Positions 17,631 to 45,883 of a stretch of DNA of 47,479 nucleotides are shown here, one piece after another. The notes beneath the pieces are model-generated. The model was not told the DNA's origin and did not search any database. It saw only the letters and a list, made by a program, of their open reading frames with translations. The first letter of the stretch is position 1. The number at the start of each line of letters is the position of its first letter. Origin of the DNA: Lachnospiraceae bacterium (GTDB taxonomy: Bacteria; Bacillota; Clostridia; Lachnospirales; Lachnospiraceae); NCBI GenBank assembly GCA_014239155.1, contig JAAZZQ010000020.1, positions 1 through 47,479 of the forward strand, written 5' to 3'. A program made the position numbers and the translations under genes.

Positions 17631-17679
17631 GCGCTCACTTACCCTCTCTTATCTCAAAATCTAAGACCCTAACAATTCC

Positions 17680-18252: not shown

Positions 18253-18258
18253 CTTGTA

Positions 18259-18840: not shown

Positions 18841-18884
18841 ATGCCGTTTCCTCTTTAACACACTTTCTGTTCAAATGCAAAATA

Positions 18885-21869: not shown

Positions 21870-21966
21870 GTGAGTTTCTCCTGTTTATTAATTGCCAAAA
21901 ACTTTCTGCCATTATAATTTAACTGCTATCGCTCCTCGATTCATACATAGCAAATGCTGTACTAGC

Positions 21967-22422: not shown

Positions 22423-22454
22423 CTCCTCTCTAACTGGATCTATCTCTTTGTTTT

Positions 22455-22673: not shown

Positions 22674-22675
22674 CT

Positions 22676-23038
22676 TTATCCCTCTCGCGTAAAATTTAAA
22701 GGTACCTCATGTGTGTGTCCACACGAAGGGCAGACTACCTTAAACATAATAGGCTCCACATTATTAATTTTCTGATACATATCCTGCAAAAAAGCCATGT
22801 CTGCAGTGAAAAGCTTTTCAATTAAAGTCGGCGTGACCATCTCCACTCCCTCCAATTCAGTAATAACCTTAGACAATACCACAACGCTAAGATAAGAGGG
22901 ATTGTTTAGCACACGTGGATCTCTTGTTGCGCTGATCTCATCTCCTGCTGTCGCCAAGCGCATTCTTCCGTGCCGATGAATCTCACCGCTACTGTCCACA
23001 TACCCTTTGGGCAAGTCAAATTCATATATCGTCTGCAT
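22676..23038 (-). CDS. eCIS tail assembly chaperone-like protein with zinc-ribbon-like end
   Basis: A 120-residue protein from ATG 23038 (AGAAGGAAAA site). FDLPKGYVDSSGEIHRHGRM followed by RLATAGDEI is the start typical of the phage tail assembly protein family found in eCIS clusters. The C-terminus holds CPSCGHTHEVPL, a C-x-x-C-x-H pattern that may bind zinc. It is followed at two bases by the DUF6760-like gene. It is thought to act with the tape measure during tube assembly. That role comes from position and analogy. Confidence 0.78.
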   Translation of the reverse strand: MQTIYEFDLPKGYVDSSGEIHRHGRMRLATAGDEISATRDPRVLNNPSYLSVVVLSKVITELEGVEMVTPTLIEKLFTADMAFLQDMYQKINNVEPIMFKVVCPSCGHTHEVPLNFTREG

Positions 23039-23136
23039 TTTTCCTTCTCCCTTAGGAAACTCCCATTTTACGATGATTAAGATCTGTAAGAAATAATTGA
23101 TACAAATCCCTATCTGTCAAATCTCAAAGCAATCTT

Positions 23137-23631
23137 TTAATTTGGTATCACCAATTCCTCATAGGCAAGTTCCACAGATTCAATCGCCACTTCATTTGCT
23201 GTCGCATTTAAGTCTGGTGCACTATATTTTGCCACCCATGCATTGGTTAAAACCCAAACTCTGGTGCCTTGAATCGTCGTCACTGCTGTGGAGGGCGCAC
23301 CTTTATTGATGTCAATCAATTCGATAGACACCTTATAACGGGGCATTTCTCCTCTCGTCTCACTAACACACTGCTGTATCCATTTCTTAAAAGCGCTGTC
23401 CAGTGTATATCCCATTTTTAGCGTGACATTCCCATGTTTTACCAATCCTGGAATCTTAACAGGCGCCAGACTGTGAGCATTTCCCTGACGAAATTCTATC
23501 ACATCCACAGAAGCTTCCACTCCGCTCACCTCACTAAATGCTGCTGTACCATTCACTGTATCTACTGTGACAAGAAAATTCATTTTGGTTAACGGATATG
23601 CAAGACCCGAACCGTTATCGTATGTTGCCAT
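23137..23631 (-). CDS. Main tail-tube protein (gp19/Hcp-like, Afp1-type)
   Basis: A 164-residue protein from ATG 23631 with a near-perfect AAGGAGGAAAAAAT site, consistent with high expression. AYPLTKMNFLVTVDTVNGTA, FSEVSGVEASVDVIEFRQGN and VKIPGLVKHGNVTLKMGYTL, and then WIQQCVSETRGEMPRYKVSI, are diagnostic of T4 gp19-like tube proteins of eCIS. Hexameric rings of it stack to form the inner tube. It lies 13 bases after the sheath gene. No large insertions. Confidence 0.95.
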   Translation of the reverse strand: MATYDNGSGLAYPLTKMNFLVTVDTVNGTAAFSEVSGVEASVDVIEFRQGNAHSLAPVKIPGLVKHGNVTLKMGYTLDSAFKKWIQQCVSETRGEMPRYKVSIELIDINKGAPSTAVTTIQGTRVWVLTNAWVAKYSAPDLNATANEVAIESVELAYEELVIPN

Positions 23632-23643
23632 ATTTTTTCCTCC

Positions 23644-25332
23644 TTACTTTGCATCCGCTGTAAATTGTGTTACCCGGAAAATCACAAACTCTGCTGGACG
23701 CGACGGCGCAATTCCAACATTGCAAATTAGACGTCCATTCTTAATATCATCCGCTGTCATAGTAACAGTGCCAATCTCAACAAAATAGCTCTCTTCAGGG
23801 CTTGCCCCTGCCAACATTCCACTCCGCCATAAAGTATCGAGAAAAGAAGATATTGTAATACGAACTCTTGTCCACAGTGTTGTGTCATTTGGTTCAAATA
23901 CCACCCAGTTGGTGTTTGCCCGAATACTTTCCTCCACATAAATAAATAATCTTCTAATATTGACATACTTAAAGGCACTATTGCTGCTCGCAGTTCTTGC
24001 TCCCCATACTCGGATTCCCTGTCCTGGAATCCGACGAATTAAGTTTATGCCCGCCGGATTTAAAATATCCTGCTCTCCTTTGTTGTAGTTTACACTGAGA
24101 TCGGAGCACATCACTGTCTCATTTGCAGGTGCTTTATGAACCCCGCGTGTAATATCCGTCCGCGCATAGATTCCCATCACCGCACCAGATGGAGGGAAAA
24201 AACCCGCTTTCTGGGTAGCGCGGTCAAAGCATTGTATCCACGGGTGGTACATCGCTGCATAAGTGCTGTCTATCATTTCACGATACTCCAGTAATTCTTT
24301 GGTATTGGTGTACTCTTGTGGCATATCTAACACAGCAAAACGATTCCCCAAATTCTCACAGTGCGCCACCAGAGAGACGACTACATCTGGCATTGTAATC
24401 CCTGGAACTGCAAGCATACTCACTTGATCATTTTCTACAAATGCCTGAATGCCACTGCGATTTCCCGGTCCATTATCTTCCCCAATAAAAGTTCCCGCTG
24501 TGACTGCATTCATACTGCCATCACTGCCGCCTGTCAATACAATCTCTCCTGCAAGCTGATCTGTTCCCAAAATCTGCATAACGGGATTTTCAAGTCTGTC
24601 TGATGTGTCCAATCGGACACACACCAGCTCACTTTTCTGCATTCGATGTTCCAGATAATCCGGGGACGCCACATTTAAGCTAAGCCCTGTATACACCTCT
24701 GTCTCTGCCTCATACCGAACTTGAATTTCCGTCTCCACCAAGTATAACAGCTTCTTTGGGACAAGTCCCGCATCTACAGGTTCGCTCACAAACGGCGTCT
24801 CAAAAGTAACAATATTGTCAAAGATAGAGACAATGCGGTTGTACGATGCCTCAAATACCACCAAATCGCCCTCTAACAGCCCATCAACACTTTTTGCCTT
24901 GTAGGTTGTTTCCTCCATTTTTTCTATCAGTTGAATTTTCTTCTTCGTCACAGATGAAACGCGCATCTGAATGCGATTTCCCCATGCCCCCTCATTTGCA
25001 GCACATACATGTAAAATTCCCCTATCTGCTGTTGCCACACAGGCATCTGGCGCCGTCACCCGCACAATATAACAGCGTGTACCTCCATTTGCAAAAAACT
25101 GTTCTACGCTACTCGCCAGATATCGATAATCCCTATGCGTAAACATACTCAGATATCCACCAAACTCCCGCTGAAACTCTGCAAAATTTGTGATAAGTGA
25201 AGGCGCGCCTTTCGTTGTCCCCTTCACAGCCATTCCCACAAAACCAGCAGTGCTTGTACCAACGCCTTCAATGGACCGCGGGGAATTATCATACTCTTCC
25301 ACATACACCCCCGGTGATAAATATTCTGCCAT
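23644..25332 (-). CDS. Contractile tail sheath protein
   Basis: A 562-residue protein. ATG 25332 is chosen because AAAGGAG lies seven bases before it and the product then begins MAEYLSPGVYVEEYDNSPRS, the canonical sheath start. The C-terminal sheath domain is clear: INLIRRIPGQGIRVWGARTA, RRLFIYVEESIRANTNWVVF, then TRVRITISSFLDTLWRSGML. An insert domain (about 130-290) decorates the outside. A single sheath gene serves the whole particle, unlike Afp, which has three. Contraction of the sheath drives the tube out. Confidence 0.96.
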   Translation of the reverse strand: MAEYLSPGVYVEEYDNSPRSIEGVGTSTAGFVGMAVKGTTKGAPSLITNFAEFQREFGGYLSMFTHRDYRYLASSVEQFFANGGTRCYIVRVTAPDACVATADRGILHVCAANEGAWGNRIQMRVSSVTKKKIQLIEKMEETTYKAKSVDGLLEGDLVVFEASYNRIVSIFDNIVTFETPFVSEPVDAGLVPKKLLYLVETEIQVRYEAETEVYTGLSLNVASPDYLEHRMQKSELVCVRLDTSDRLENPVMQILGTDQLAGEIVLTGGSDGSMNAVTAGTFIGEDNGPGNRSGIQAFVENDQVSMLAVPGITMPDVVVSLVAHCENLGNRFAVLDMPQEYTNTKELLEYREMIDSTYAAMYHPWIQCFDRATQKAGFFPPSGAVMGIYARTDITRGVHKAPANETVMCSDLSVNYNKGEQDILNPAGINLIRRIPGQGIRVWGARTASSNSAFKYVNIRRLFIYVEESIRANTNWVVFEPNDTTLWTRVRITISSFLDTLWRSGMLAGASPEESYFVEIGTVTMTADDIKNGRLICNVGIAPSRPAEFVIFRVTQFTADAK

Positions 25333-25397
25333 TTTTATTCTCCTTTCTTTTTCACAGAAAATTAATATTATATAGTTCTCCATAAAATATCATAAAG

Positions 25398-25787
25398 TTA
25401 TGAAACCACCACTGTCTTCTGTCCTGAATCAATAATATTCAGTGTGCCACCATAGCTACACACAGAAACGGCATCACCAGTTAGACAAGGCTTTCCTTCT
25501 GCTAAACAAATTGTCTGTGTTGGTATCCATGTCCCTGCCACCGCTGGAACACAAGGCTGTGGTGTCAGCACCCCCAACGCTGCTGCTGTCGCCGACGCCA
25601 CCTGTGGATTTGCTAGAGAAGAACACATGCCAAAGCTAGAAATATTGACATTTGGCGCACAATCCTGTATTGTCGCCACAGGTTTTCCCTCCGCTAACAC
25701 AGTTGTCTGTGATGTGACAGTAAGATTTGCGGGGGCTGTGCCAAATGGACACAATATCTTTGCCCCTGTAACTACAATCACATGCAT
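25398..25787 (-). CDS. PAAR-like spike tip protein (DUF4280)
   Basis: A 129-residue protein whose ATG overlaps the previous stop (TAATG) and has AAGGAGGATATTA before it. The sequence VVTGAKILCPFGTAPANLTV, with later MCSSLANPQVASATAAALG and GDAVSVCSYGGTLNI, is the DUF4280 PAAR-like family. Members cap the spike with a sharp, metal-stabilised cone. Several conserved cysteines (C-P-F-G, D-C-A-P, C-S-S-L) are in place. It is coupled to the envelope-module gene upstream and lies 65 bases before the sheath, so it bridges the two halves of the operon. Confidence 0.92.
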   Translation of the reverse strand: MHVIVVTGAKILCPFGTAPANLTVTSQTTVLAEGKPVATIQDCAPNVNISSFGMCSSLANPQVASATAAALGVLTPQPCVPAVAGTWIPTQTICLAEGKPCLTGDAVSVCSYGGTLNIIDSGQKTVVVS

Positions 25788-28540
25788 TAATATCCTCCTT
25801 CCCTAGAGCGTATTTGCCGCAATTCCAATAGTATTTCCTGCGATTTTTCGACTGCATCATCATTGACAAGCACTGTATAATCAGTACCAGAAATCTCAAA
25901 ACAATAACAGTCAAACTGCTCCTGAACAAAAGAATCTGGAAGATACAACACTCCAAAAAATTCCGCAGGACGTTTCATTTTTATTGTCTCACCTGTCTCA
26001 GTCTCCACTGTGTCAAGATATGCTGTAAACCGGAAAAACTGTCTGCCTTTTGACAATACAGTGCTCTTTTTTGTATCATTCCACACATATCGATATCCTA
26101 GATATGCCGCAAGTGTTTCTGCTGAAATATAAGAGTTTCCTCCCTGCTGTTCCACCGGAAAAACCATATTGAAATCAGACTGATTGAGTGCTGTCGCCAA
26201 TCCCCGCGCAAGCACTTGAATCGATTCTGTATCTGTTTCCTGCCCAAAACGCTCAAGCGCAATCAAAGCAGCCGCCAAATCCCCCTGATTTGATTCTGCC
26301 TGCGTCGTTGATATACTATTTTTAAACGACTCATCTCCCTGTAATTCGTCTTTACTTAATTCTGGCTGCGTTGTTGATAAACCATATAGCGCTACTAGTT
26401 CCTTTGATAAATTCCCTTCCATATCAAACAAAACATCAATCCCCAATATATCTGTAATAACTTGTTCTGCTCTGGAAGCGGATAACTCACCGGATAAACT
26501 TGCATTAATTGTGCTTTCAGAGAGGGCAGTTTCCATCTGATTCTGCAAATCTTCGTAGACTTTTATTCCCTCAAGTTCTGACTTCGCAAGAAGTTTTTGA
26601 TACACTTCCTTCGACGCCTCCTGCGCAAGCATAGACCCCTCGTTCATCATTTGGGTCAATAATTTCACATCGCTCTCTAACAGTTCTTGTGCTGTATCAC
26701 TTATATCTCCCTTTGCAATCAAGCGTAAAATCTCACTTTTACATGCCATAATATTTGCAGTCTGACTGTCCGAAGGCAAATTGGACTGGCAATCTGCAAT
26801 CGCCGCTTCCAGTCCGCTCAACTCTGCCTGTAAGTCTGCATTCTGTGTATTTTGAGGATTGTTCGCAAGTTTTTTCTCCAATGTTGCCTTCTTCTGAGTC
26901 AATTCTTGTAATTGCTCTGAAAACGCCGCCTGCGAGACATTAATTTTGTCATTAATTTCCGCAATTTTTGCATCAATCCTTTTGGCAGTGTCCAAATCTA
27001 AGTTATCAAGTGCTTGCAGCTTCTGCTCCTGCAAGTCTGCCCTCTGTTCATACAACAGTTCTTCTTTGCTCTGGCTGCCACTCTCCTCCTTCACATTCAA
27101 TAAAAGATTATTTAACCAGTCAATATAAGCTGTTACACTATTTTGATACTCCTGCTTGTAATCATCTATCTTAATGACTGTTTTAAACACAGATGCATCT
27201 TGTATTCTTGAGAACACATAATTTTGCGCTGCATCATTCTCCTGCCGTTCTACCTTTGCCTGTAACAAAAACTGTAATTCGCTTCGCGCTGCATCTGCCT
27301 CCGCCATATCTTCCCGCATCTTATTTTGCAAAGCGGCGTGGGATACATTCTGTGCAGATAGTGTGATATACTGCTGTGTTACGCCACTCGCCAATCTCTC
27401 ACTGTACCTTTTATCTGCTAAATCAATTAACGTGTTTAACAGGGTCAACTCCTCTTGTCTTTGTACAATTCTTCCACTGTTTATATTGTCAAGGTATTGC
27501 AGTTTTTGATTCTGCTCATCACATAGAAAATAATTTTTTCCCTCCGCATTCAATATCATCTCCATTGACAGTTCATACTCTGCTTCGGAAATAATTGTAT
27601 TTCCCTTTACAAGCATATTTCCTTGTGCCTCAGTCATACTCTCCCCAACTGCATATTGACTCTCCCCGACTGCTGCAAGAAGGTTGTCATCCAATTCCAA
27701 CTCTTCTTCCTCATCTTCCACATTTGCAACTGCGTCTTGTAAAGAGACAATCCCGCTGTTAATCATACTCAGCACAGCCGCCCTTCTTGCATTGTCTATC
27801 TTTTTCATCACGTTTAATACCATCTGCGTTTCTCGGTTGTCTGCACCACTTTCTGCCAATTCATTATAATACCCTTGCAATGCTTGTATCTGTGCATCAC
27901 ACTGGTCTGTCGCGTCTGACCGCACTTGCATTTTCCAAAAATTCTCCACAAGTTTTTGATTGCGCACCGCCGTCTTTGTGCTGCTTTTGGATTCCTGCAT
28001 AATGTCATACTGTAGTTTCAAAGCTTCCAGTTCTGGCATTAACTCCAGTTCGTACACACCCCTAATATCAAATATACAAACTTGTGCATTGGTCTTTAAA
28101 TCATAAGTAATTTTATCCGACTTTGTATGATGTGTAAAATAAAGTGCCTCTATCTCACTATCATCCACAATCTTTCCCGCTGCCGTAATATCTTTTATTG
28201 AGCCCGCATCACTGATATCCAACCACATTCCTCCCGCAAGTTCAGATTTGTAATACCACTTGTCTTGCCCAGAATCTGACGCAGACTCCAGTGCAATTGC
28301 ATAGATTTCCTCATTTAATGAATGCAGATAAATTAAGTGCGTTCCTATGGCAAGTGTCGCATTTTCTATTGTGCTCGGATCGATATGTACAGCCTCCTCC
28401 TTGCGAAAAAGCCCCGCGGAGGCTGTTCTTAATTGCAGCGCGGCAACCACTGACAACAAGATTACACACATAACAATTCTTGTATACTTTCTTTTGCGTT
28501 CGCTCTCGAAACACATTCTTAATTTTGCCAGATTTCTCAC
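25787..28540 (-). CDS. Membrane-anchored long coiled-coil protein with stalk domain
   Basis: A 917-residue protein starting at GTG 28540 (GGAAGG before it); ATG 28516 is an alternative. A hydrophobic signal or anchor (about 22-45, IVMCVILLSVVAALQLRTAS) suggests export. Residues about 180-700 are mostly coiled coil rich in Glu/Gln/Lys/Ala (ELTQKKATLEKKLANNPQNT, LYEQRADLQEQKLQALDNLD). Residues about 790-850 resemble a stalk domain (copper amine oxidase N-terminal-like): SYISAETLAAYLGYRYVWND then STVLSKGRQFFRF. Such domains are common on Clostridia surface proteins. It is translationally coupled to the PAAR-like gene. A long rod outside the membrane would suit a docking or guide structure for the particle, which is inference. 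Confidence 0.7.
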   Translation of the reverse strand: MRNLAKLRMCFESERKRKYTRIVMCVILLSVVAALQLRTASAGLFRKEEAVHIDPSTIENATLAIGTHLIYLHSLNEEIYAIALESASDSGQDKWYYKSELAGGMWLDISDAGSIKDITAAGKIVDDSEIEALYFTHHTKSDKITYDLKTNAQVCIFDIRGVYELELMPELEALKLQYDIMQESKSSTKTAVRNQKLVENFWKMQVRSDATDQCDAQIQALQGYYNELAESGADNRETQMVLNVMKKIDNARRAAVLSMINSGIVSLQDAVANVEDEEEELELDDNLLAAVGESQYAVGESMTEAQGNMLVKGNTIISEAEYELSMEMILNAEGKNYFLCDEQNQKLQYLDNINSGRIVQRQEELTLLNTLIDLADKRYSERLASGVTQQYITLSAQNVSHAALQNKMREDMAEADAARSELQFLLQAKVERQENDAAQNYVFSRIQDASVFKTVIKIDDYKQEYQNSVTAYIDWLNNLLLNVKEESGSQSKEELLYEQRADLQEQKLQALDNLDLDTAKRIDAKIAEINDKINVSQAAFSEQLQELTQKKATLEKKLANNPQNTQNADLQAELSGLEAAIADCQSNLPSDSQTANIMACKSEILRLIAKGDISDTAQELLESDVKLLTQMMNEGSMLAQEASKEVYQKLLAKSELEGIKVYEDLQNQMETALSESTINASLSGELSASRAEQVITDILGIDVLFDMEGNLSKELVALYGLSTTQPELSKDELQGDESFKNSISTTQAESNQGDLAAALIALERFGQETDTESIQVLARGLATALNQSDFNMVFPVEQQGGNSYISAETLAAYLGYRYVWNDTKKSTVLSKGRQFFRFTAYLDTVETETGETIKMKRPAEFFGVLYLPDSFVQEQFDCYCFEISGTDYTVLVNDDAVEKSQEILLELRQIRSREGGY

Positions 28541-28554
28541 CTGCCTTCCACCAC

Positions 28555-30612
28555 TTATTCCTCTTCTACTGTTATCGAAGCCGTAGCCGCCACAAAACTT
28601 CCGCAGTATAACAGTTGTTCTGCTGTATTATAAAACACTACTCGCAGTTGGGATACATCGCCAACCAAAAGAGAAAGATATCGAAATTCCTCGTGAATTG
28701 GTATCAATGCATCTCCAAAAATGTTACCCCCATCTCTATTTTCCAAACGATAATACGCAATCGGTTCCCCGCTTTTGGGATATAGAGAAAGAGTGACCAA
28801 ACCAGTACTATCCTCCAAATGATAGGTGTATGTAGCAACTGTTTGCGCTGTCTTTTCTTGTATCAGTGTATATCCACCCTTAATGTCCAACACATCTTGA
28901 TACACTGATGCATCAATCTCACAGACGTCTATTAGTTCTTGTTCATTGTACAGATAAAGTTTTACATTTTGTGTCTTGTCAAGATTGAGCGCCAAGTGTT
29001 CTAGTACTTGCTTCACTTGTGTTTTATCGCCAATCTGTTCTTCATTTACATACAATGCAAAATGCGTAATTTCCATAGTATTATCCGCAAAATAATTTTC
29101 TGGAATGCTGACGCCCAATCGAAACAGATTATCCTCCACCGCATATTCAATATAGTAATATGCCTTGCCTTTCACTTCCTCTGCCAAAAAGCTGTTTCCT
29201 CCCTGAGCAACTTTCATATTAATATCTGTGCCCTCCAGAAACGCTGTGATGCCCCCACAAGTCAATCTATCATAGGCATACAAAAGTTTACTGTACTCTC
29301 CCAAAAGTTCTAGCGTTGCCAACTCCTGTTCTTCATACTCCTGCTGCATACCTGAGAGTTCCTCATAATCAAAACTTCCAAGCCTATTTAACTCTGTACT
29401 TTTTCCCAAATCCTCTTCCAGTTCATCACATGTTTGTATTGCGTCCATATATACAAGTTGTGCCGTTTTTAATGTCTCAAAATCATTTCGTACTGTCTGC
29501 GTAAGCTCCTCTTTTGCAGACTGTTGTTCTCGCACTGCATCTGCATATTCCAATGCGCCAGAATACAACGCATATGGGTCATCTTCCACATAACGAGAAC
29601 CCGCTACAGCCCCTTTAAACCACTCCTTATTGATTCGGATAAACAAAATTCGGATACTCCCATTCCACGGCGCGTCAATATCTTCCAACATCTGATTGTA
29701 TGCTTTCTTAAAGATAGAACTGTCAATTGTCTCTCCGTTTAGTGCCTGTTGAAGATATGGTTCTATACCATTCATCTTATCTCCATACTGATTGCGCATC
29801 ATACGCTTCATCATATTTAAACTTTCAAGAGATAGTGCTGTCTCAAGCTTTGTCTCGTAATACTTCTGGTCATTATTTAAAGTATATGTCACAAGCGAAT
29901 CCAACACGCTGCGCGGAATATCAGCCTCCACAAAAGGATTGAGAAATGTATATCCAGAACTGACATCGAGATGAATCAGTTTTGAAAGCTGACCTTTCTT
30001 ATTTTCAAAAGTTCGCATTTGCAGTGATATATCAGTGGTCAACCTGCTTACCTTTTTCTCCAATCGCTCTACATCAGCCTTTGATGCCTCCCCGGAAATT
30101 AGTCTAATTTGATTTCGTTTTAAAGCCTCCTTTGCCGCCTCCAAACTTCGTTCATAAAATTGAATCTTTTCCTGACAAATATAAACCTCTGTAAAAAGAA
30201 TAGATACTTTCTCCTTTCCAGCAAGCAATTCATCTTGCAGTTGGTGTTTTAATTCATTTATTACACATGTAATCTGTAGTGGCTTGTACTGCCACTCATA
30301 CTCGTTAGCCAATGTTGGCTTTTGTGGAAACTTAAATGAGAGCAATGGTGTCCAGCGAAAAGTTGCCATATTTTTCTTTTTCATTTTAATCGACTTAACT
30401 GCGGTGGCGTACTTTATCTCCTGAATCTCAATTTTATTCTGAATTTTCCTTAGATTTACTGAATTGGCAGCAGCCAAACTCTGCGCTTTTGTCAAAGATA
30501 ATTTTTGGACCGCCTCAACGCGTATAGGGCAAACACACAAGACAGACTGTACCAGCAGCACAAAAAACAGAATCCAAAATACTTTTTTTCTGATTTTATC
30601 CTGAAAACGCAT
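28555..30612 (-). CDS. Secreted TolC-like coiled-coil protein
   Basis: A 685-residue protein. ATG 30612 is preferred, with GGAGG ten bases upstream; a GTG at 30621 falls on the site itself. Residues 1-33 are a signal peptide (VFWILFFVLLVQSVLCV). KLSLTKAQSLAAANSVNLRK followed by alternating helices up to residue about 470 recalls the outer-membrane-efflux/TolC fold, a family also found in Clostridia that have no outer membrane. The C-terminal 200 residues are beta-rich (VAQGGNSFLAEEVKGKAYYY and on). The start overlaps the end of the MORN gene. The function in a Gram-positive is unknown. It may build a hollow or rod-like periplasm-level structure with the 917-residue partner. Confidence 0.65.
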   Translation of the reverse strand: MRFQDKIRKKVFWILFFVLLVQSVLCVCPIRVEAVQKLSLTKAQSLAAANSVNLRKIQNKIEIQEIKYATAVKSIKMKKKNMATFRWTPLLSFKFPQKPTLANEYEWQYKPLQITCVINELKHQLQDELLAGKEKVSILFTEVYICQEKIQFYERSLEAAKEALKRNQIRLISGEASKADVERLEKKVSRLTTDISLQMRTFENKKGQLSKLIHLDVSSGYTFLNPFVEADIPRSVLDSLVTYTLNNDQKYYETKLETALSLESLNMMKRMMRNQYGDKMNGIEPYLQQALNGETIDSSIFKKAYNQMLEDIDAPWNGSIRILFIRINKEWFKGAVAGSRYVEDDPYALYSGALEYADAVREQQSAKEELTQTVRNDFETLKTAQLVYMDAIQTCDELEEDLGKSTELNRLGSFDYEELSGMQQEYEEQELATLELLGEYSKLLYAYDRLTCGGITAFLEGTDINMKVAQGGNSFLAEEVKGKAYYYIEYAVEDNLFRLGVSIPENYFADNTMEITHFALYVNEEQIGDKTQVKQVLEHLALNLDKTQNVKLYLYNEQELIDVCEIDASVYQDVLDIKGGYTLIQEKTAQTVATYTYHLEDSTGLVTLSLYPKSGEPIAYYRLENRDGGNIFGDALIPIHEEFRYLSLLVGDVSQLRVVFYNTAEQLLYCGSFVAATASITVEEE

Positions 30613-30617
30613 GCACT

Positions 30618-31718
30618 TCACTCCTCCATCCGATAAAAGTCAAAACCTGCATCCTTGTCCTTACAAAAAAACGTATACAAAATTCCTTCCTTGTCATACA
30701 CATAAATATATGCTTGATAGCTCTTATCAAAATCTCTAACCTCTGTCACATCAGAAAATATTTTTTTGCTCTCAAAATCTGCCTTTCCATAAAGCACAGT
30801 ATCTCCTAACATCTCACAACATATATTTAGAACAATCTTATCTTCTGGGGATAAATAAGTATTTCCCTGATAGACAGGCGCACCCAATTCCTGCGTAAGC
30901 TGCGAAATTTGATTTAACATGTTTCCTTCTAGGCAGATTTGCGGTTTTAGCACATACAATCCAGAAATCCGAAATACTTCCTCTAACGCATCACGTCTGT
31001 CCGTGCCAAAGTACACCGCGTCGATTTCTTTCATATGGACACAAGCTATCTGATCTCCTGTGTAAACTTCTCGCTCTCCCAAATAAATTTCAGTAGTCTC
31101 CGCCGCACTTTTTCCAAGAAACTCCTGATAAAAAATTGTGCCCTCCTGAAAAAAACCTTGATATATTTTGTCTTGTGTTGTATTGTATAGTATCCCTTTT
31201 CCTTGCATAAAACCCTTTTCAAAACTTCCCTCATACCAGAGCGTGCCATCTACATGATATAGTTTTCCTAAACCATTGTATAAATTATCCTGAAACATTC
31301 CTTCATACACAAGTTGCGCATTCTCGTTATAATACTTTCCTGTACCGTTGTATGCATTGGCATCAAAGTCTCCCTCATACACTCTATTTCCCTGTGCATC
31401 ATACAAAGTTCCTTTTCCCTTTACCATACCATTTTCTACATCACCAATATATGCTGTATAACCAGATTTTCCAAGAATCTTCACCTTTCCTGTAACAAAT
31501 TTAAGGGAGAGTGCATTATAGCGATATGTTCTATATATTGTATCCTTTTGAAAAAGTTTTGCAGGTTTTATACTCCACAGCAGCCATACACAACATACAA
31601 TCATAAGAATCTCTAGCGCCATAGCAAGTTTTCTGCTAATCTCCCAGAAGAAAAAAGTACAATAATCTTTGTCGTCTTTGGGTCTCATGTCAAAAAAGCG
31701 CACCAGAAATTCTTTCAT
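30618..31718 (-). CDS. Membrane-anchored MORN-repeat protein
   Basis: A 366-residue protein from ATG 31718 (GGAGG, nine-base spacing). One transmembrane helix at about 35-52 (MALEILMIVCCVWLLW). From about 88 to 200 there are five MORN-type repeats: YIGDVENGMVKGKGTLYD, YEGDFDANAYNGTGKYYN, YEGMFQDNLYNGLGKLYH, YEGSFEKGFMQGKGILYN and a partial YQGFFQEG. MORN repeats form extended beta-hairpin arrays that bind proteins or lipids. The C-terminal 160 residues (IACVHMKEIDAVYFGTDRRD and on) are an unrecognised domain. With a single anchor, the repeat part is probably outside the cytoplasmic membrane. It could be a platform that contacts the TolC-like and coiled-coil proteins. Confidence 0.8.
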   Translation of the reverse strand: MKEFLVRFFDMRPKDDKDYCTFFFWEISRKLAMALEILMIVCCVWLLWSIKPAKLFQKDTIYRTYRYNALSLKFVTGKVKILGKSGYTAYIGDVENGMVKGKGTLYDAQGNRVYEGDFDANAYNGTGKYYNENAQLVYEGMFQDNLYNGLGKLYHVDGTLWYEGSFEKGFMQGKGILYNTTQDKIYQGFFQEGTIFYQEFLGKSAAETTEIYLGEREVYTGDQIACVHMKEIDAVYFGTDRRDALEEVFRISGLYVLKPQICLEGNMLNQISQLTQELGAPVYQGNTYLSPEDKIVLNICCEMLGDTVLYGKADFESKKIFSDVTEVRDFDKSYQAYIYVYDKEGILYTFFCKDKDAGFDFYRMEE

Positions 31719-31744
31719 GTTCGCTTTCCTCCCTCACATATACA

Positions 31745-34393
31745 CTATCTACAGAACAATTCATAATGACTATCCTTGTCCTCTCCTTTATTTAGCCGCT
31801 TGTCACAGGCAAACACATACCATTTGGCAATACCATCATCGGGGCATTCTCGAACAATGTTCGTAAAAGCGTTTCTCGCGGAATATAAGTCGTCGCTATA
31901 ATACAGTTCCAGCGCATGTTCAAAACACTGTTTATTTTTCAATTTTCCAAGTTTCTGCATCTGCGAGCACGCATCCAAAATTTCATATAGCCAGAATCGG
32001 CTCTTTTCATCAGCGGAAGTCACATAGCCAATACGTCGTCCTTTCACTTGTGTGCATACCTGCTGCCAAGTCTGTTCTGTCACAACAACCCGCGCGCCAC
32101 TATACTTGAGTTCATCAATATAACGGCTCAATATATCCATCTCTATTGATGTCACATAGGGATACACCTGTTTACTGCCGCCTGCAAGCCCACAGCGAAA
32201 CTGATCAGTATGTAACAAAATAAAAGGATTGGTATCATAAGCATCCTCAATCTGTTGCAGCAATTCCTCCATACAGTCAATACTGTATCGAACTGCGGTC
32301 AATGCACTTTGCTCCTCCCCTTGAAAAATCACTTTAACATTTTCCAGATTGCTTCCATTCTGCAAAAAAACTGCCTGATTGGATTCTTTTTGTGAGAACA
32401 ACAGTTCCATTAGTTGATTTACATACTGGACATATTGTCTTTGCAATTTTCCAGTAAGCAATGTGTCTTTATCAATTACTGAAATCATACCTAAAGTCGC
32501 CGCCATTTGTACTGTCTCGCCAATTTGAATATCCTGTAGTTTCTCTTTGCCAAACAACTGTTCAAAATTCTGTGGCGCATACTGGTCAAGATATTCAATT
32601 GTCTCTTCTGTCTTGTACTTTTGCCGCTGCAAGTTCCTGCACATGCGTTCTAGCCCCAGCCACATTAATCCAAACTCATTATTTGGTGCCTTTCTGCTGT
32701 CAACAGCATACTCTCCGCGGGATACCCGCTCCATTGCAGCGCACAACATCCCAATATTTCTCCACTTCCATCGCAGGAAAAACGCCAATACAAGCATAAT
32801 TAGCAGCCAGCCAACAACTGCCACAATATAAAAAATATCTTCTACTTCCTGATGTGTACTCATCCCATATAACGGCACGCGCGACAGCAAACAGACCTGC
32901 TGTTTTTTATCCCCAACCTTTGAGACTGCCATCGCATAAGAAATTCCATTTACCTTGTCAATAAACTTATGTGTATCCTTTGGAAGCATCTCCATCGTAA
33001 TACAATCTCGAATCCTTTCAAGTGTTAACGCATCATAAAATGTATCCGCCCGTCTGCCATAGGATGCTTCCTCCGCATAGAGAAAGACAAGATGGTCCTG
33101 ATTCATACAGATAAGCTCCTCCCTCATATAAAAGGGCTGACTTTCATTTCCCATCACATTTCCCGAAAAAATTTCTTCTACCGATTTTTGCTGCCCTGAG
33201 GCCTCGTAATCCTCATACTCAAGTGTCCCTCTTACCGATTTTATCGCCGCAATCAACTTTTCTTTCTGAATATTCATACAAGTGTCTGCCAGAAATTTTT
33301 GTTGCTCTTGCTGCTCCGCAACCTCATGCAGCCAAATACCTGCAATTGTCACCGCTAACCAAATTCCCGTAAATCCTGCCAACGCTGCCATTGTCTGATA
33401 CAAAAGTCTTCGTCTCCTCCACACCAGACGCCGAAACAGTTCCAATAAAATCCAGACAATCAAATAAATCAAGGTATATAAAAGCAACGGAAACCACAAA
33501 CACTTTACCTTTTCCCGAATGCCAAGTGCCATACAGTTAAGCACACGCATGGTCTCCTCACCCAATCCCACAAGTAAAAGTTCATCTTTATTGTTCTGGG
33601 ACACTTTTAATATGGCACTATTTTGTGCGCTCTCAGAATATTGAATATTCCATACAGCTCCCATTTTCTCAAACGTATAACTATTAAGACCATTTTCAAA
33701 TAAATAAATAATATCCTCGCTGCCCTTTATCTGATAATACAATCCATTTTTATCAGCGAGGAAAAAGACAACGTCTTCTATCTCGCGCCGCTGCATTATA
33801 CCATTTTCAGTAATAAAATAAATGTGGTTGTCCTGAGACAATGTGTACATGCCATTTTTTCCCCAACAGATAGTAGTTGGTATAAAATCTGTTTCAAGGC
33901 GCACCTGCCTCTCCATATCACCCTCACCAATGTACAACAAAATATTCTCTGTCTGTTGGTCAACGCCTGTCACATAGAGAATACCTTCCCGTACCTGAAA
34001 ATCTGTCAAGGTCACATCCTCTGCAATAGATTTTTTCCAGATACGTTGAAAATGGTTTTTTCCTTCTGCTTTCTCCCATATGCTAAACCACTGTATTCCA
34101 TCTTGATACCACATCTGTGCAAGGTAGAGTGTCTTCTTTTCATATTGGCAAAAAAGTTGCATCTCCCTTGCCTCACTCCTGCACCGAAACATCTGCTGCG
34201 GCGTCCCATTAGAGTCCAAGCGATAGATATAAACGCCTGTTCTATTTTCTCCTGCTGCATAAATATTTCCTTCGGAATCCCTTGTAATATCCTCCACAAT
34301 AAAATTATTGGAAGGCAGATACAACCGGACCACCAAGGCACCAATACCCATATAAATAATAATTGTAATCAATATTTTGATTTTGCCCTTCAA
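31745..34393 (-). CDS. Multi-pass receptor: extracellular sensor, HAMP and degenerate cyclase domain
   Basis: An 882-residue protein starting at TTG 34393 behind AGGAGAGG. Transmembrane segments lie at about 7-25, 290-312, 325-347 and 505-527. Residues 30-280 are beta-propeller-like (EDITRDSEGNIYAAGENRTG). Residues 350-500 form a second extracellular, Cache-like, part. A HAMP-type linker follows (ERVSRGEYAVDS). The cytoplasmic C-terminus resembles class III nucleotide cyclases (ETVQMAATLGMISVIDKDTL, LHTDQFRCGLAGGSKQVYPY, SGARVVVTEQTWQQV). The metal-binding Asp expected after the ATLGMISV strand is absent, so it is probably a pseudo-cyclase. The end has TPR-like helices. In this operon it may relay an outside signal to the particle or to the kinase-like neighbour. 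Confidence 0.7.
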   Translation of the reverse strand: MKGKIKILITIIIYMGIGALVVRLYLPSNNFIVEDITRDSEGNIYAAGENRTGVYIYRLDSNGTPQQMFRCRSEAREMQLFCQYEKKTLYLAQMWYQDGIQWFSIWEKAEGKNHFQRIWKKSIAEDVTLTDFQVREGILYVTGVDQQTENILLYIGEGDMERQVRLETDFIPTTICWGKNGMYTLSQDNHIYFITENGIMQRREIEDVVFFLADKNGLYYQIKGSEDIIYLFENGLNSYTFEKMGAVWNIQYSESAQNSAILKVSQNNKDELLLVGLGEETMRVLNCMALGIREKVKCLWFPLLLYTLIYLIVWILLELFRRLVWRRRRLLYQTMAALAGFTGIWLAVTIAGIWLHEVAEQQEQQKFLADTCMNIQKEKLIAAIKSVRGTLEYEDYEASGQQKSVEEIFSGNVMGNESQPFYMREELICMNQDHLVFLYAEEASYGRRADTFYDALTLERIRDCITMEMLPKDTHKFIDKVNGISYAMAVSKVGDKKQQVCLLSRVPLYGMSTHQEVEDIFYIVAVVGWLLIMLVLAFFLRWKWRNIGMLCAAMERVSRGEYAVDSRKAPNNEFGLMWLGLERMCRNLQRQKYKTEETIEYLDQYAPQNFEQLFGKEKLQDIQIGETVQMAATLGMISVIDKDTLLTGKLQRQYVQYVNQLMELLFSQKESNQAVFLQNGSNLENVKVIFQGEEQSALTAVRYSIDCMEELLQQIEDAYDTNPFILLHTDQFRCGLAGGSKQVYPYVTSIEMDILSRYIDELKYSGARVVVTEQTWQQVCTQVKGRRIGYVTSADEKSRFWLYEILDACSQMQKLGKLKNKQCFEHALELYYSDDLYSARNAFTNIVRECPDDGIAKWYVFACDKRLNKGEDKDSHYELFCR

Positions 34394-34411
34394 TAATCCT
34401 CTCCTATCATT

Positions 34412-35251
34412 TTATTGCAGCAGTGTTTCTGTTCCAATGGTATCTAATGGACCACCAAACAGTTTCCAGAAAAAATCCTCTCCCAAGAAAACATTGCCTA
34501 AGATCACAACCAACACAACACAAATCAGCACAACACAGATACATGACAGCAGGCGATAAATCCATTTCAACTCAGATTCGCCAATACTCCAACGCCTCCG
34601 TTTTCCAGAGTTGTCTGCTCTGACAAACAGCTTGATATCTTGGTACAACTGCATAAACTCCTGATATTCTTCCCGCTCTAATTTTCGTTCCAATAATGTC
34701 ATTACTTGCTTTTTAATTTGATTGTTCTTTCTCTCCAAATCCTCTAATTGTATCAGACGAATAATCTCCTCTGTACAGGCAACGACATTATCCCGCTCAC
34801 CTATGGTGCTATCATAGTCTGACAAATCCACCAAAAATCCAAGCGTAACTGTTCCATCTAGCGCAATCTGTGCCTGTCCCTGACACAAAATAAGATGCAG
34901 AACTGCGGGCGGCAGCTTGGATAAAATACATTGTTCTACCAGCGCAAGCCACACTTGCTGACAGGTACAGTATCCCTTTTTGATACTGCCCAAGTAAAAT
35001 TTATGCAATGGTCTCTCCTGAAAATAAGGAAACACCAATCCCGCATATGTATTCTGCATAAAAACTTCCGCACAATAGTTCTTTGCATCTTTCAACAGTT
35101 CTTTCACAATTTGGTGGTCTTTTACAATCCACACTGTCTTATACGGCGCTTCTGATTTTCCTGTTTCACGGCAGATATACACATTATTTGATTTCCCTTT
35201 CAGAACTTCTTGGATAATCTGATATATCTTCTTCCCTGTATTCAGAACCAT
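34412..35251 (-). CDS. Membrane-anchored degenerate protein-kinase-like protein
   Basis: A 279-residue protein from ATG 35251 (GAGGGAAAA site). Residues 1-200 suggest a protein-kinase fold: NVYICRETGKSEAPYKTVWI-type beta strands with a VK lysine, a hinge-like LVFPYFQERPLHKF, and a region LHLILCQGQAQIALDGTVTL ending in FLVDLS at the place of the catalytic and metal loops. The HRD and DFG aspartates are not conserved, so it would be a pseudokinase. One transmembrane helix at about 230-252 (LLSCICVVLICVVLVVIL) is followed by a short extracellular tail. T6SS-type systems are known to be tuned by kinases, but no catalysis is claimed here. The fold call is tentative. Confidence 0.55.
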   Translation of the reverse strand: MVLNTGKKIYQIIQEVLKGKSNNVYICRETGKSEAPYKTVWIVKDHQIVKELLKDAKNYCAEVFMQNTYAGLVFPYFQERPLHKFYLGSIKKGYCTCQQVWLALVEQCILSKLPPAVLHLILCQGQAQIALDGTVTLGFLVDLSDYDSTIGERDNVVACTEEIIRLIQLEDLERKNNQIKKQVMTLLERKLEREEYQEFMQLYQDIKLFVRADNSGKRRRWSIGESELKWIYRLLSCICVVLICVVLVVILGNVFLGEDFFWKLFGGPLDTIGTETLLQ

Positions 35252-35362
35252 TTTTCCCTCGCCTACTCTTTATTTTTCAATTGCTCTTTCGCAACAATTC
35301 CTTATAGTAATTCTCTGTTAACAGAACTGGCAGAAAGCCTGAATAAGTATAAAATTATTTTC

Positions 35363-37150
35363 TTATAATAATTCCCTGCTGACTACTGCATATACATAAG
35401 TAGAAATCTTTGGCATGTCTGTACAGTAAATATAAATTTCGTAGACGCCTTCTTTCGCCGGCGCCGTATACATACCATCCGCCGTAATCTCGCCGCTTCC
35501 CTGTTCCGTTAGTTCATAGCTTAACCGGCATGGTTGTAGATTCTGAAAACTTACATTAAAGTAATAGCTCTCTTTTGCCCGCAGTCGTACCGTTGGCGTC
35601 TCCGGTATGATAGAACGATTTTCCTCCTCCTGCATCTCGTCAGAATCTTTTCCAGAGCCAAACTTGATCGCAACCCAGCTCAATTGTAAAACAATACTCT
35701 TCTGTTCTCCCAACAATTTTGCCGCCACCTGAAAACTGCCTTTGTCATTTAACACACGAACAGCAGTCTCTACCTGCATACACTCCTGAAAACCAAACAA
35801 TTCCGCATTTCCAAAAATAGTATTTCTGCGGCTTCCTCTGTTGTAAGGTTCATTGTCTATATACTCTGTCCCCACTTCAATATACACATTTCCCTTGCCC
35901 AGACCATGCATAATTTCCTCAGACAAACACACATCACCTTTTTTCATATTGACATCAAGTGGTATCTCAAGCCTGCCGCTCGCCATAGGTAATTGCAGTT
36001 CTTCTCGACCTGTTACAGCTTCTGTATATTGTTCGCCTATATTCTGCTCAATTTTATTCCCATTGTCCCCGTCAAAATATGACAGGAATGTATCTCTCTG
36101 CCCAGCCTTCGCAGGTGTGATAATATAGTGTTTTACCCCCTGCTCAATTATCTTACTGACTAGACAGCTAACATCAGTGCGCAACAAATCCAGTACTGCA
36201 ATACATACATCTTGACTTGTGTTGGATTTTAGATTGCTTTCCAGATTTGTTTTGCCAACCGTATCCACAGCCAATGCAAAAGGCGGCAAATCTGATAAAC
36301 ACAATCGAAATTGTATTTCGGCTCCTGCTTCTATCTCACGTCCTCCAATCTGAAATTGCATATCCTCCTTTCGACACAAAACTGTTGTCTCTTTTGTCTC
36401 TGTAGGTTCAACACAAAACCAATAATTTTTTCTTAAAATTTGCCCCTTTGGAAGCTGTATTCCCTCAATATTGACTTCCAGCTCATGATTTCCAGTCATA
36501 TCTGTAAAGGAAGGCGTCTGCATCTTTATACGAAAAGACAACTCTTTTGTCTTCTCTGAATTTTTACGAACTACTACCATCAGTTTTACCGTATGTCCCT
36601 TTGAGGCAATATATGGCATTTGAATCCATACTGTGTAATCTACATTGTCCAATATTATTTTCTTTAAAATTAAATCTGTTGCTGTATCCTCTGCATCAAT
36701 CACGCAGGCATCATAATAGTCTCTAACATACAATTCATACCCTTCATCAATACGATTGCTTTCATACTCTTTTCCTTCTGTCCCAATATCACCGCAGTAT
36801 ACATTATGGACTGCCTCCTCTCGATAGCGAATATATAGCCCTGCGTACTCGCTGTGAAGTGTATCAAAGCCAGCTAGCCCCGAAAGCTTTTTCACTACAG
36901 AAGTATCCACTACAATCTCTCGTCCAGCCCCGTCAATTGCCACGCCACTCTCCACCAAAATCGACAAATCATCTAAATTTATGACATTGAGCCCGCAGAC
37001 AATGCCACTTCCGAACAAAATGCGGTTTAGAAAGCGTCGTTTATTGTTCATATAGAGTTGTTCCGCACTAAAATCCGCAGCGGTCAGCAGCTTGCCTGCG
37101 TAATAGCGGTTTCTTTCAAAAGGAAATAATTGGTTATTTTTCACATACAT
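35363..37150 (-). CDS. First operon gene: large beta-rich protein with C-terminal Ig-like domain
   Basis: A 595-residue protein. ATG 37150 lies directly against GGAGGA, so GTG 37144 two codons on may be the real start. There is no signal peptide or membrane segment. The N-terminus FPFERNRYYAGKLLTAADFS followed by AEQLYMNNKRRFLNRILFGS is a motif I associate with proteins encoded in eCIS loci. It continues VCGLNVINLDDLSILVESGV. The middle is beta-rich. The last 70 residues (LTEQGSGEITADGMYTAPAK then GVYEIYIYCTD) are a bacterial Ig-like domain. Possible roles are a fibre- or baseplate-associated protein or the link between particle and envelope module. The operon promoter lies 57 bases upstream. 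Confidence 0.65.
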   Translation of the reverse strand: MYVKNNQLFPFERNRYYAGKLLTAADFSAEQLYMNNKRRFLNRILFGSGIVCGLNVINLDDLSILVESGVAIDGAGREIVVDTSVVKKLSGLAGFDTLHSEYAGLYIRYREEAVHNVYCGDIGTEGKEYESNRIDEGYELYVRDYYDACVIDAEDTATDLILKKIILDNVDYTVWIQMPYIASKGHTVKLMVVVRKNSEKTKELSFRIKMQTPSFTDMTGNHELEVNIEGIQLPKGQILRKNYWFCVEPTETKETTVLCRKEDMQFQIGGREIEAGAEIQFRLCLSDLPPFALAVDTVGKTNLESNLKSNTSQDVCIAVLDLLRTDVSCLVSKIIEQGVKHYIITPAKAGQRDTFLSYFDGDNGNKIEQNIGEQYTEAVTGREELQLPMASGRLEIPLDVNMKKGDVCLSEEIMHGLGKGNVYIEVGTEYIDNEPYNRGSRRNTIFGNAELFGFQECMQVETAVRVLNDKGSFQVAAKLLGEQKSIVLQLSWVAIKFGSGKDSDEMQEEENRSIIPETPTVRLRAKESYYFNVSFQNLQPCRLSYELTEQGSGEITADGMYTAPAKEGVYEIYIYCTDMPKISTYVYAVVSRELL

Positions 37151-37206
37151 TCCTCCATTACTTCCAAATTCTTCCTTTTATCTCTTATTGTATATAATAT
37201 ATAAAA

Positions 37207-37235
37207 ATAATACTAAAATCAATCTTTTTCGTCAA
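37207..37235 (-). promoter_or_regulatory. Promoter of the 29.6-kb eCIS operon
   Basis: On the minus strand, -35 TTGACG (37235-37230), a 17-bp spacer and -10 TATTAT (37212-37207), upstream of the first gene. The genes downstream overlap or lie within about 140 bases of each other down to 7595, and I found no internal terminator, so this is the likely main promoter. Confidence 0.75.
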
Positions 37236-37244
37236 AATTTACTA

Positions 37245-37274
37245 TTCAACTCTTTCTTTTTTTGGTATGATAAT
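37245..37274 (+). promoter_or_regulatory. Weak candidate promoter of the divergent signalling/AAA+ operon
   Basis: TTCAAC (37245-37250), an 18-bp spacer and GATAAT (37269-37274), 32 bases before the ATG at 37306. The -35 is poor, so an activator may be needed. It is back to back with the eCIS promoter within 70 bp, which would allow shared control. Confidence 0.35.
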
Positions 37275-37305
37275 TTTATTACAAACTTTAGAAAGGATCT
37301 GTCAT

Positions 37306-38154
37306 ATGCGCAAAACAATTCCACTCCTACTAAATAGCGTTCTATTTATCTGTGGTGTTAGTCTTCTTTTTCTCCAACACACTGTTTTATGTGCAGTGTG
37401 TTACTTGCTAATCTCCATTCTATTTATATGGACATTTAAAACAGAACACACTTCTATCGATCTTCCTTCTGAGGAAAACTTATCCGAAGATACAGAAGCA
37501 CAATATGCGAAACTATCCCTTCAGGTTGAGGAACTTACTGCCGCCAATGAACTATTTGCCAAAGAAAATAAACAGCTTATGGACGAATTAAATTTATCCA
37601 AAAATGCACAGACCAATACAAGATATAATGGTGTCCTTTATACTTGCCCGCTGACTTCTTCTCTTCCAATGTGCTTAGATAATTTTTTTACGGACTATTT
37701 AAACCATCACGCAGACTTCATAAAACGTCAGAAAATTACTTTAAATTACAGTTGTTCCTCACCGGAAGCTGTCACTTATCTATCGTCAGCCGCACTGACC
37801 CTAATCTGTGGCAATATCATTGACAATATGATAAAATTCAGCCCTTTATCAGAGTCCGCCTACATCCGGATTACAGCATATGAAGGAGGCAGTCTTATCA
37901 TCTTTAAAAATGAAGGCAACGGACCAGCTGAATCCGAACTGGACAAACTGTTTGACCTAAACTATCAGGGCATCAACAAAAAGGGAGGACTTGGACTCGG
38001 GCTATCTCAAGTAAAGGTACTGATTGATGACTATGGTGGTGAAGTCTGGGCTAAAAGTACCAAAAACACAGGATTTACGCTGTATATAAAACTGCCAGAA
38101 CAACCTGTGACAACCGCCGACGAAAAAATATCCTTAATAAATTGGGAGAAGTGA
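37306..38154 (+). CDS. Membrane histidine-kinase-type ATPase lacking a visible phospho-acceptor domain
   Basis: A 282-residue protein. ATG 37306 has AGAAAGGA upstream; the upstream in-frame ATG at 37267 has no site. Two transmembrane helices (about 5-24 and 26-44) precede a coiled coil (about 65-105, LSLQVEELTAANELFAKENK). Residues about 145-270 are a HATPase_c domain with an N-box (TLICGNIIDNMIKFSPLSES), G1 (IIFKNEGNGPAES) and G2 (KGGLGLGLSQVKVLIDDYGG). Between the coil and the ATPase I see no H-box histidine of a DHp domain. It either uses another residue or partner or works as an ATP-sensing switch. It is two bases from the SH3 gene and divergent from the eCIS operon. Confidence 0.8.
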   Translation: MRKTIPLLLNSVLFICGVSLLFLQHTVLCAVCYLLISILFIWTFKTEHTSIDLPSEENLSEDTEAQYAKLSLQVEELTAANELFAKENKQLMDELNLSKNAQTNTRYNGVLYTCPLTSSLPMCLDNFFTDYLNHHADFIKRQKITLNYSCSSPEAVTYLSSAALTLICGNIIDNMIKFSPLSESAYIRITAYEGGSLIIFKNEGNGPAESELDKLFDLNYQGINKKGGLGLGLSQVKVLIDDYGGEVWAKSTKNTGFTLYIKLPEQPVTTADEKISLINWEK

Positions 38155-38156
38155 TT

Positions 38157-38732
38157 ATGAAGAAAAAAACGATACTTATTCTTATCAGTTTATTGCATAT
38201 CTGTGTCTTTTGTGTTGGAATCTTAATCTTTTTTCAAACGAAACAAACATCGCGCGAAAACAGTAATCTTATATCAGACGCTGCTGTCCGAATCACAGAG
38301 ACGGAATCGGATACCCTTATAGAACTTTCTTCTACAGAATCTTTTTCTACAGAGCCGCCCGAATCAGAACAAATGTTTTCTACTATAGAAGAATTTTTAC
38401 CGGAATCTACTTTTGTTGAAGATATCTCAGAACCTTTTATGGAAGAATCTTTCTCGGAAATATCCTCCGTCGAAGATATCTCAGAACCTATTACAGAAAA
38501 TATATCTGTACCAAAATCGTCCTATACTTTTAAGTATATTCCACATAACAATCTGAAGCTCAACATTCGGAATGCACCTTCCATGCAGGGAAAAATTATA
38601 GGAAAAGTTCCTCCCAACAAGGGTGGAACAATCCTTGAGTTTACAAACAAAGACTGGGCACTAATTGAATATAATGGCACAACTGGATACAGTAACTTAC
38701 ATTGTATTATATTGCACCCGCAAAAAAATTGA
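38157..38732 (+). CDS. Membrane-anchored SH3-domain protein
   Basis: A 191-residue protein from ATG 38157 (GGGAGAAG before it), two bases after the previous stop. Residues 4-26 are a signal anchor (TILILISLLHICVFCVGILI). Residues 30-120 are a Ser/Thr/Glu-rich, probably extended linker with a repeated VEDISEP motif. Residues about 125-188 form an SH3b domain (NNLKLNIRNAPSMQGKIIGK then GTTGYSNLHCI), a fold that often binds peptidoglycan or protein partners. It would reach from the membrane into the wall. Placed between the ATPase and the AAA+ gene, it may sense or anchor at the wall for the injection system. Confidence 0.75.
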   Translation: MKKKTILILISLLHICVFCVGILIFFQTKQTSRENSNLISDAAVRITETESDTLIELSSTESFSTEPPESEQMFSTIEEFLPESTFVEDISEPFMEESFSEISSVEDISEPITENISVPKSSYTFKYIPHNNLKLNIRNAPSMQGKIIGKVPPNKGGTILEFTNKDWALIEYNGTTGYSNLHCIILHPQKN

Positions 38733-38773
38733 TTGTTTTATTCTACCGCTTATAGAAAGGATTATTTTATTCA

Positions 38774-42755: not shown

Positions 42756-42784
42756 AAATAAAATTCCTCCTTTCAGTATATGTT

Positions 42785-45883
<3,099 letters not shown>

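Follow-up and report, generated by a model that had tools for sequence, protein, structure and literature searches.

The stretch of DNA analysed here (the window) is a 47,479-nt contig of a Lachnospiraceae bacterium (JAAZZQ010000020.1, assembly GCA_014239155.1; contig C83 of genome G000 in the genome set used) carrying a contractile injection system (CIS) that runs on the reverse strand from about position 37150 down to about 7600, with an AAA+ ATPase and an eCIS_core protein past its 5′ end. Pfam scans, which covered 36 of the 71 listed open reading frames (ORFs) and every gene of the cluster, recognise the genes of the extracellular type (eCIS) together in one locus: sheath, tube, spike, gp25, Baseplate_J, Pvc16, CIS_tube, AAA+ and eCIS_core. 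Between a promoter-like site and the gene for the PAAR-like tip lie six further genes, A595, B279, C882, D366, E688 and F917 (Table 1), which constitute the module under study.

The original prediction had described six closely spaced genes ahead of the tip, at least five of them encoding proteins with a signal peptide or membrane anchor, and the locus agrees with this description in position, number and strand. All six ORFs are present on the reverse strand, separated by gaps of 111, 18, 26, -4 and 14 nt; the predicted TAATG overlap at 25787 is present and preceded by AAGGAGG, and in a hydropathy scan only A595 shows neither kind of segment. No terminator-like site was detected between the module genes on the reverse strand in a scan of positions 22000-38800, and the promoter-like sequence just before A595 (TTGACG-17-TATTAT) has 10 of 12 consensus matches, in an AT-rich stretch where sites defined by consensus matches only are frequent (68 observed versus 43.7 in shuffles). 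The terminator-free gaps, together with this promoter-like site, make a single transcript likely.

Table 1. Features of the CIS locus and its flanks in the window (positions of the whole stretch).
Feature	Position	Strand	Evidence or remark
A595, first module gene, 595 aa, soluble	35363-37150	-	
B279, 279 aa, N-terminal domain and C-terminal membrane segment	34412-35251	-	
C882, 882 aa, membrane receptor-like, 4 segments, propeller-like outside part, class III cyclase homology domain, probably degenerate	31745-34393	-	
D366, 366 aa, N-terminal membrane segment and MORN repeats	30618-31718	-	PF02493 E 5.9e-9
E688, 688 aa, exported TolC-fold protein without barrel strands, C-terminal beta domains	28555-30621	-	
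F917, 917 aa, exported, Cu_amine_oxidN1 domain (PF07833)	25787-28540	-	
PAAR-like tip (DUF4280)	25398-25787	-	PF14107 E 6.9e-31; start overlaps F917 stop
Contractile sheath	23644-25383	-	PF04984, PF17482
Tube protein	23137-23631	-	PF06841 E 4.5e-32
Remaining particle genes: second tube, CIS_tube proteins, hub, spike, gp25, Baseplate_J, second wedge, Tail_P2_I, Pvc16	8308-22422	-	Pfam
Promoter-like site before A595	37207-37235	-	Consensus scan only
Divergent HATPase_c (histidine-kinase-like) and SH3_3 proteins	37267-38732	+	
AAA+ ATPase	38774-40819	+	PF00004 E 5.4e-32
eCIS_core domain protein (PF13699)	40809-41180	-	E 8.5e-12

The conservation of the module was assessed on 75 loci, compiled as GTDB contigs matching two E688 peptide patterns, whose titles name mostly Lachnospiraceae or its genera and also Clostridia, Eubacteriales, Eubacterium, Ruminococcus, Bacillota and bacterium. 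The order and strand of the best matches are unbroken in all 75 loci for the genes in view, and 45 loci show all six. The number of loci in which each gene is visible is 55 for A595, 58 for B279, 55 for C882, 66 for D366, 68 for F917 and 43 for the sheath, counts that larger profiles left equal; D366 is present in 63 of the 66 loci with at least 1.5 kb visible before E688. C882 is missing from eight loci of the window's clade in which B279 and D366 are visible (L057-L059, L063, L067, L089, L091, L099). Among the 32 loci without a sheath in view, six (L092, L095, L098, L102, L111, L120) carry one further along the contig, past a doubled F917, bringing the total to 49 of 75, and for another 24 the contig end comes before the expected sheath position; a search of the genomes of 15 of the 32 found a sheath in 13.

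A midpoint-rooted tree of 24 sheaths resolves two clades with 100/100 support, the window's own and a sister clade, and 19 upstream stretches were read across them, nine from the former and ten from the latter. Seven of the nine carry the six families in the same order (A595 being cut by the contig end in L028), and the remaining two, cut by contig ends, show the families that remain in view. None of the six families lies upstream in any of the ten sister-clade stretches (0/10); there, Tail_P2_I is followed by A595, B279 and a MORN protein, and further on by Pvc16 with a partner, by PAAR and by a homologue of C882. The two clades therefore share four of the six families, and A595, B279 and D366 keep an identical order in each although the block sits elsewhere relative to the particle genes. 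The first branch of the sister clade, G095, has C882, D366, E688 and F917 consecutively, with B279 adjoining on the opposite strand and A595 on the same contig; it is the only sister-clade member in which F917 was seen, this family having been looked for only in the stretches read. Given that G095 has both, and depending on the rooting, E688 and F917 were probably present in the common ancestor and later lost in the sister clade. A bin, G034 (L006, L026), holds sheaths of both CIS clades and gave no E688 match.

Co-inheritance with the particle was evaluated from pairwise distances in the 30 loci with eight complete genes. Distance correlations with the sheath reach 0.89 for A595, 0.87 for B279, 0.86 for D366, 0.76 for E688 and 0.73 for F917, compared with 0.72 for the tube and 0.60 for PAAR. 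The module is thus no more loosely tied to the sheath than the tube is, with the qualification that vertical descent alone also gives high values.

At the level of genomes, 25 of 98 related genomes searched match the sheath, one of them weakly (25% identity) and 24 with at least 50% identity. Matches to E688 at E <1e-100 occur in 13 of these 24 and in none of the 74 others; all E688 matches together number 15, comprising 12 of the 13 window-clade genomes, G095, and two weak partial matches (G063, G069) in genomes with no sheath match that we take as unrelated or distant. B279 matches 22 of the 98 genomes, namely 21 of the 24 with a sheath (in one case through a 31-residue fragment) plus G028, whose contig starts inside a CIS, and local scans add it in G017 and G020. 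A595 matches 27, made up of 23 of the 24, G028 and three weak or partial cases. E688 and B279 hence do not occur mostly apart from eCIS genes, an outcome that the original prediction had set as refuting it. Wider searches, which scored the best six candidates per genome for B279 and the best two for E688 and may therefore have missed some, found B279 in seven of 391 class-level genomes: five have a sheath, and the other two (G472, G406) combine a weak B279 match with no sheath match and are again taken as unrelated or distant. Full-length E688 was found in 2 of 398 genomes of the phylum; 66 others gave weak partial matches, mostly to shorter OEP-type frames.

The membrane layout of the proteins was derived from a hydropathy scan of family members rather than from a trained predictor. 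A595 has an N-terminal hydrophobic core in 0/49 members; 14 of the 49 show one weak hydrophobic stretch, which in 12 lies at residue 46, inside the attachment domain. This N-terminal domain (residues ~1-110) weakly resembles the attachment type found in the crown of the thylakoid-tied CIS (tCIS) of Anabaena and in eBAP3 proteins: the best of three PDB rows was All3314/Cis19, over residues 15-83 (E 0.016; whole-protein profiles E 1.5-1.9), and a solved 1443-aa PKD-domain protein, PDB 9wt0 chain a, which may be another CIS crown, matched it weakly (E 0.25). The protein is conserved up to its C-terminal end, which appears Ig-like by eye, and its profile search of the PDB also returned weak complement C3 rows. 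No Pfam match relates A595 to TssK, no PHROGs match was obtained, and PDB sequence searches with A2, A5 (eight members) and the first gene alone yielded nothing useful. A separate A595-like protein of 565 aa is encoded in L154 (G072:C11), with no surrounding CIS gene and in a genome without a sheath match.

B279 has its last hydrophobic segment 22-36 residues from the C-terminus in 51 of 51 members (18 show a second window), followed by a tail of about 26 aa ending in a nearly invariant IGTE(S/T)LLQ (34412-34500); its charge suggests that the N-terminal domain lies on the cytosolic side. A kinase-like fold is suspected from blocks made out by eye; hhalign comparisons with kinases (E 0.11, in the range of unrelated pairings) and one with EssB (E 0.4) were not significant, and B279 as a pseudokinase or EssB relative gained no support. 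C882 has four to five membrane segments in 39 of 40 members and three in one. Its C-terminus shows homology to class III nucleotidyl cyclases by hhalign (91.8%, E 7.2e-7 for residues 575-882; 74%, E 2.8e-5 for residues 615-815; the other eight pairings 0.11-0.53), a link found by profile-profile comparison only and absent from sequence-profile searches; the alignment, itself weak, places a conserved Asp at neither metal-binding place across the 40 members. A propeller match to 3hxj (E 0.00045) with a seven-member profile was not repeated with the 40-member profile, and Pfam scans of C882 and B279 members produced scattered, unconvincing families only. D366 has one membrane segment in 7 of 7 members.

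E688 and F917 bear an N-terminal hydrophobic core, with nothing hydrophobic past residue 70, in 53/53 and 42/42 members, respectively. Residues 40-466 of E688 adopt the two-repeat long-helix fold of TolC in a structure model, in line with a Pfam OEP match, and the outer-membrane beta barrel is absent, the helical part of the model having only three-residue strands (89-91, 95-97 and 224-226); F917 carries PF07833 in 27 of 42 members. Omp85 was found in none of 12 genomes comprising the producer's own and its relatives, in a search whose control was positive in 7 of 14 named genomes, a result that fits a monoderm producer. No transporter gene was seen alongside E688 and F917 in the window. The tunnel of a TolC-type trimer is narrower than a CIS tube, and on these dimensions E688 is more likely to be a wall-side scaffold or gate than the path of the tube. 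The lengths of E688 and F917 covary (rho 0.75 in 45 loci; 0.58 in the 37 loci with E688 below 1000 aa), which in related sequences is suggestive only. In one subgroup (L189-L193, L198, L204) F917 is doubled, and E688 measures about 1250-1300 aa in six of these seven stretches; in L092 the surplus length of E688 comes from some 560 aa that follow the E688 domain, and E688 proteins of 1298-1403 aa occur in L108 and L114 with no A595-D366, F917 or sheath in view.

The original prediction proposed that these proteins form a docking, sensing or firing complex at the producer's own envelope, and it is supported in part: linkage, shared descent, a weakly crown-like A595 N-terminus, the likening of eBAP3 proteins to TssK in PMC12923769 and the TssL-like, tail-anchored layout of B279 speak for it, and the absence of E688 and F917 from most of the sister clade against it. 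The conserved membrane and exported set may keep the machine at the producer's envelope and trigger it there, and the reading we put forward, at somewhat less than even confidence, is that of a producer-side complex that holds the CIS and fires it outward, in the manner of a type VI secretion system (T6SS), from a monoderm cell. Regarding contacts, sidedness, oligomeric state, docking, sensing and outward direction, we infer the following arrangement. A595 would sit on the baseplate through its crown-like N-terminus, and its conserved C-terminal end would bind the cytosolic domain of the tail-anchored B279. C882 and D366 would adjoin B279 in the membrane, exposing propeller and MORN parts on the outside, with C882 passing a signal through its probably degenerate cyclase-type domain, so that the particle stays in place until a cue fires it. 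As a TolC-like helical barrel, probably trimeric and with no outer-membrane barrel, E688 would combine with F917 into a scaffold or gate on the wall side, where firing takes place, and it is this placement that favours outward firing. The stronger proposition, that the locus encodes an independently arisen trans-envelope apparatus of T6SS type, assembled from an eCIS, a crown- or TssK-like adaptor, a dead-cyclase receptor and a repurposed barrel-less TolC fold, is offered as a tentative possibility.

Several observations weigh against this proposal. E688 is missing from the whole genomes of the sister clade except G095, and module distances correlate with those of the tube at only 0.51-0.62. 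Three genomes with no sheath match contain A595-related sequences, an A595-like protein in G072 and fragments of the C-terminal part in G066 and G087. L108, L114 and L115 carry E688 with no A595-D366 upstream in 6-9.7 kb of visible sequence; in L114 it is flanked by AAA-type genes, and the 8 kb behind it contain no F917 and no sheath; whole-genome searches found no sheath in the genomes of L108 and L097, and in L065 the whole block and the sheath are on separate contigs. That homologous loci might lack the module is accordingly borne out for E688 and F917 in most sister-clade genomes and for A595-D366 in 3 of 66 loci, and contradicted by the retention of A595, B279 and D366, with C882, in both clades. 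As regards the adaptor, eBAP3 proteins are described as target-binding fibres in the available text of PMC12923769, where eBAP3 loci are said to be largely without Afp12, yet a second wedge protein is present here.

A rival account of the locus is an ordinary released eCIS in which A595 is a target-binding fibre and B279-F917 are co-regulated proteins for sensing, protection or the cell surface, none of which contacts the particle. A595 does look like an eBAP3 fibre, a C3b/BIG fibre from isolate An92 being given in the accessible part of PMC12923769, it returned weak complement C3 rows, and neither Pfam nor PHROGs scans recognised a separate tail-fibre gene in the locus. We nevertheless regard this account as unlikely, given that A595 is conserved to its end, that the order of A595, B279 and D366 is constant in both clades despite the different position of the block, and that module-sheath distances correlate like sheath-tube distances. 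The association could be weaker still, the six genes being chance neighbours with no functional connection to the particle, and L065 and L114 do provide cases in which the block or E688 is found away from the rest; co-occurrence with the sheath, the distance correlations and the order and strand kept in 75 loci lead us to reject chance neighbourhood.

If the particle is indeed docked or triggered by this membrane complex, it could instead puncture the producer's own membrane in regulated cell death, which has been proposed for the Streptomyces CIS and perhaps for that of Anabaena, in which case E688 and F917 would report envelope stress, as sensors or as components of the wall. CISSc with CisA, the nearest Gram-positive system known, is so described in the available text of PMC12237407, the outside parts of C882 and D366 would suit such sensing, and a wall-side part that most of the sister clade does without is not essential. 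Inward killing would, on the other hand, have no need of two exported proteins, one with a TolC fold, that are kept through most of the window's clade, and we judge a self-directed role improbable. The patchy distribution of E688 also admits a division of the module, in which only A595-D366 serve the particle and E688 and F917 are an independent exporter or surface structure, such as a TolC-like duct, that joined the locus. Most sister-clade genomes retain A595-D366 without E688, L108, L114 and L115 have the converse, and other Bacillota possess shorter OEP-type proteins (the weak partial matches in 66 of 398 genomes). The lack of any transporter gene seen beside the pair in the window, and the presence of both sets in G095, which makes E688 and F917 probably ancestral if the rooting holds, render such an exporter very unlikely. 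We thus retain the envelope-held, outward-firing particle as our working interpretation.

Other genes of the locus are noted here as separate observations. A 994-aa protein (18885-21869) lies between the second tube and CIS_tube genes and is possibly a tape measure or cargo-related; proteins in its place measure 732-1268 aa, with 33-40% identity within the window's clade and no inter-clade match, and it has no match in PHROGs. Genes similar to the divergent HATPase_c and SH3_3 pair occupy an equivalent position in L027, L029 and L032. Behind the CIS genes, adjoining a divergent helix-turn-helix gene, lie two proteins of 370 and 358 aa (4331-6635) that have a hydrophobic N-terminal segment and match no known family, and past the other end of the locus are an MFS_2 transporter, a GH2 beta-galactosidase and an AraC-type regulator (41352-46994).

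For the action of CIS in Gram-positive cells, the sources available describe CisA of Streptomyces as the membrane partner. The present locus provides a concrete parts list, conserved in many gut Lachnospiraceae and present in cultured strains such as Extibacter muris DSM 28560 (L057), which has all the families except C882, and it documents that a TolC fold has been retained where the cells show no trace of an outer membrane. Should docking prove true, the system would add a further type of anchored CIS and an independent invention of the T6SS mode of working. We found no published study of a Lachnospiraceae CIS or of such a module, in a search that left subscription journals largely outside.

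Anchored or membrane-triggered CIS are already known, as tCIS, the CisA system and T6SS subtype iv, in the sources as far as available. The tCIS of Anabaena is an eCIS-like particle tied to the producer's thylakoid membrane, to which the fibre-like Cis13 anchors it by a membrane segment and Cis12 by an extension (PMC8894136, available in part). Its likeness to the present system lies in the Cis19 crown N-terminus that A595 weakly matches (E 0.016); here, in contrast, the membrane parts are distinct proteins, accompanied by an exported TolC fold, in genomes without Omp85, and the baseplate proteins of the window (8895-15095) have no membrane segment. In CISSc, the membrane protein CisA is encoded beside the baseplate genes and is required for firing, according to the accessible text of PMC12237407. 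The Gram-positive host and the adjoining membrane protein gene are shared, whereas CisA is described there as a single bitopic protein whose outside domain is solute-binding-like, and four to six other proteins are encoded here. The eBAP3-type eCIS of Bacillota and Actinobacteriota share the Tail_P2_I locus and, probably, the shoulder-like N-terminal domain; their proteins have been likened to TssK, and the available text on them in PMC12923769 mentions no membrane module. With the TolC family E688 shares the helical repeat fold and the Pfam OEP match, differing in the lack of barrel strands in its model, in its added C-terminal beta domains and in genomes without Omp85.

The T6SS, a diderm machine, combines a baseplate adaptor (TssK), a tail-anchored membrane protein (TssL) and a trans-envelope part (TssM). 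The layout of the module parallels these three, and the tail-anchored B279 resembles TssL in particular, with no homology by the tests made; none of the TssJ, TssL and TssM families appeared in the Pfam scans of 36 window ORFs. The T6SS subtype iv and the BIS, for which Aasi_0556 is the type of anchor protein, differ from the present system in their diderm hosts. They offer a parallel in one respect, an eCIS-like particle reported or proposed to be membrane-anchored in the producer, in Amoebophilus and Bacteroidales, respectively (PMC12210884, available in part).
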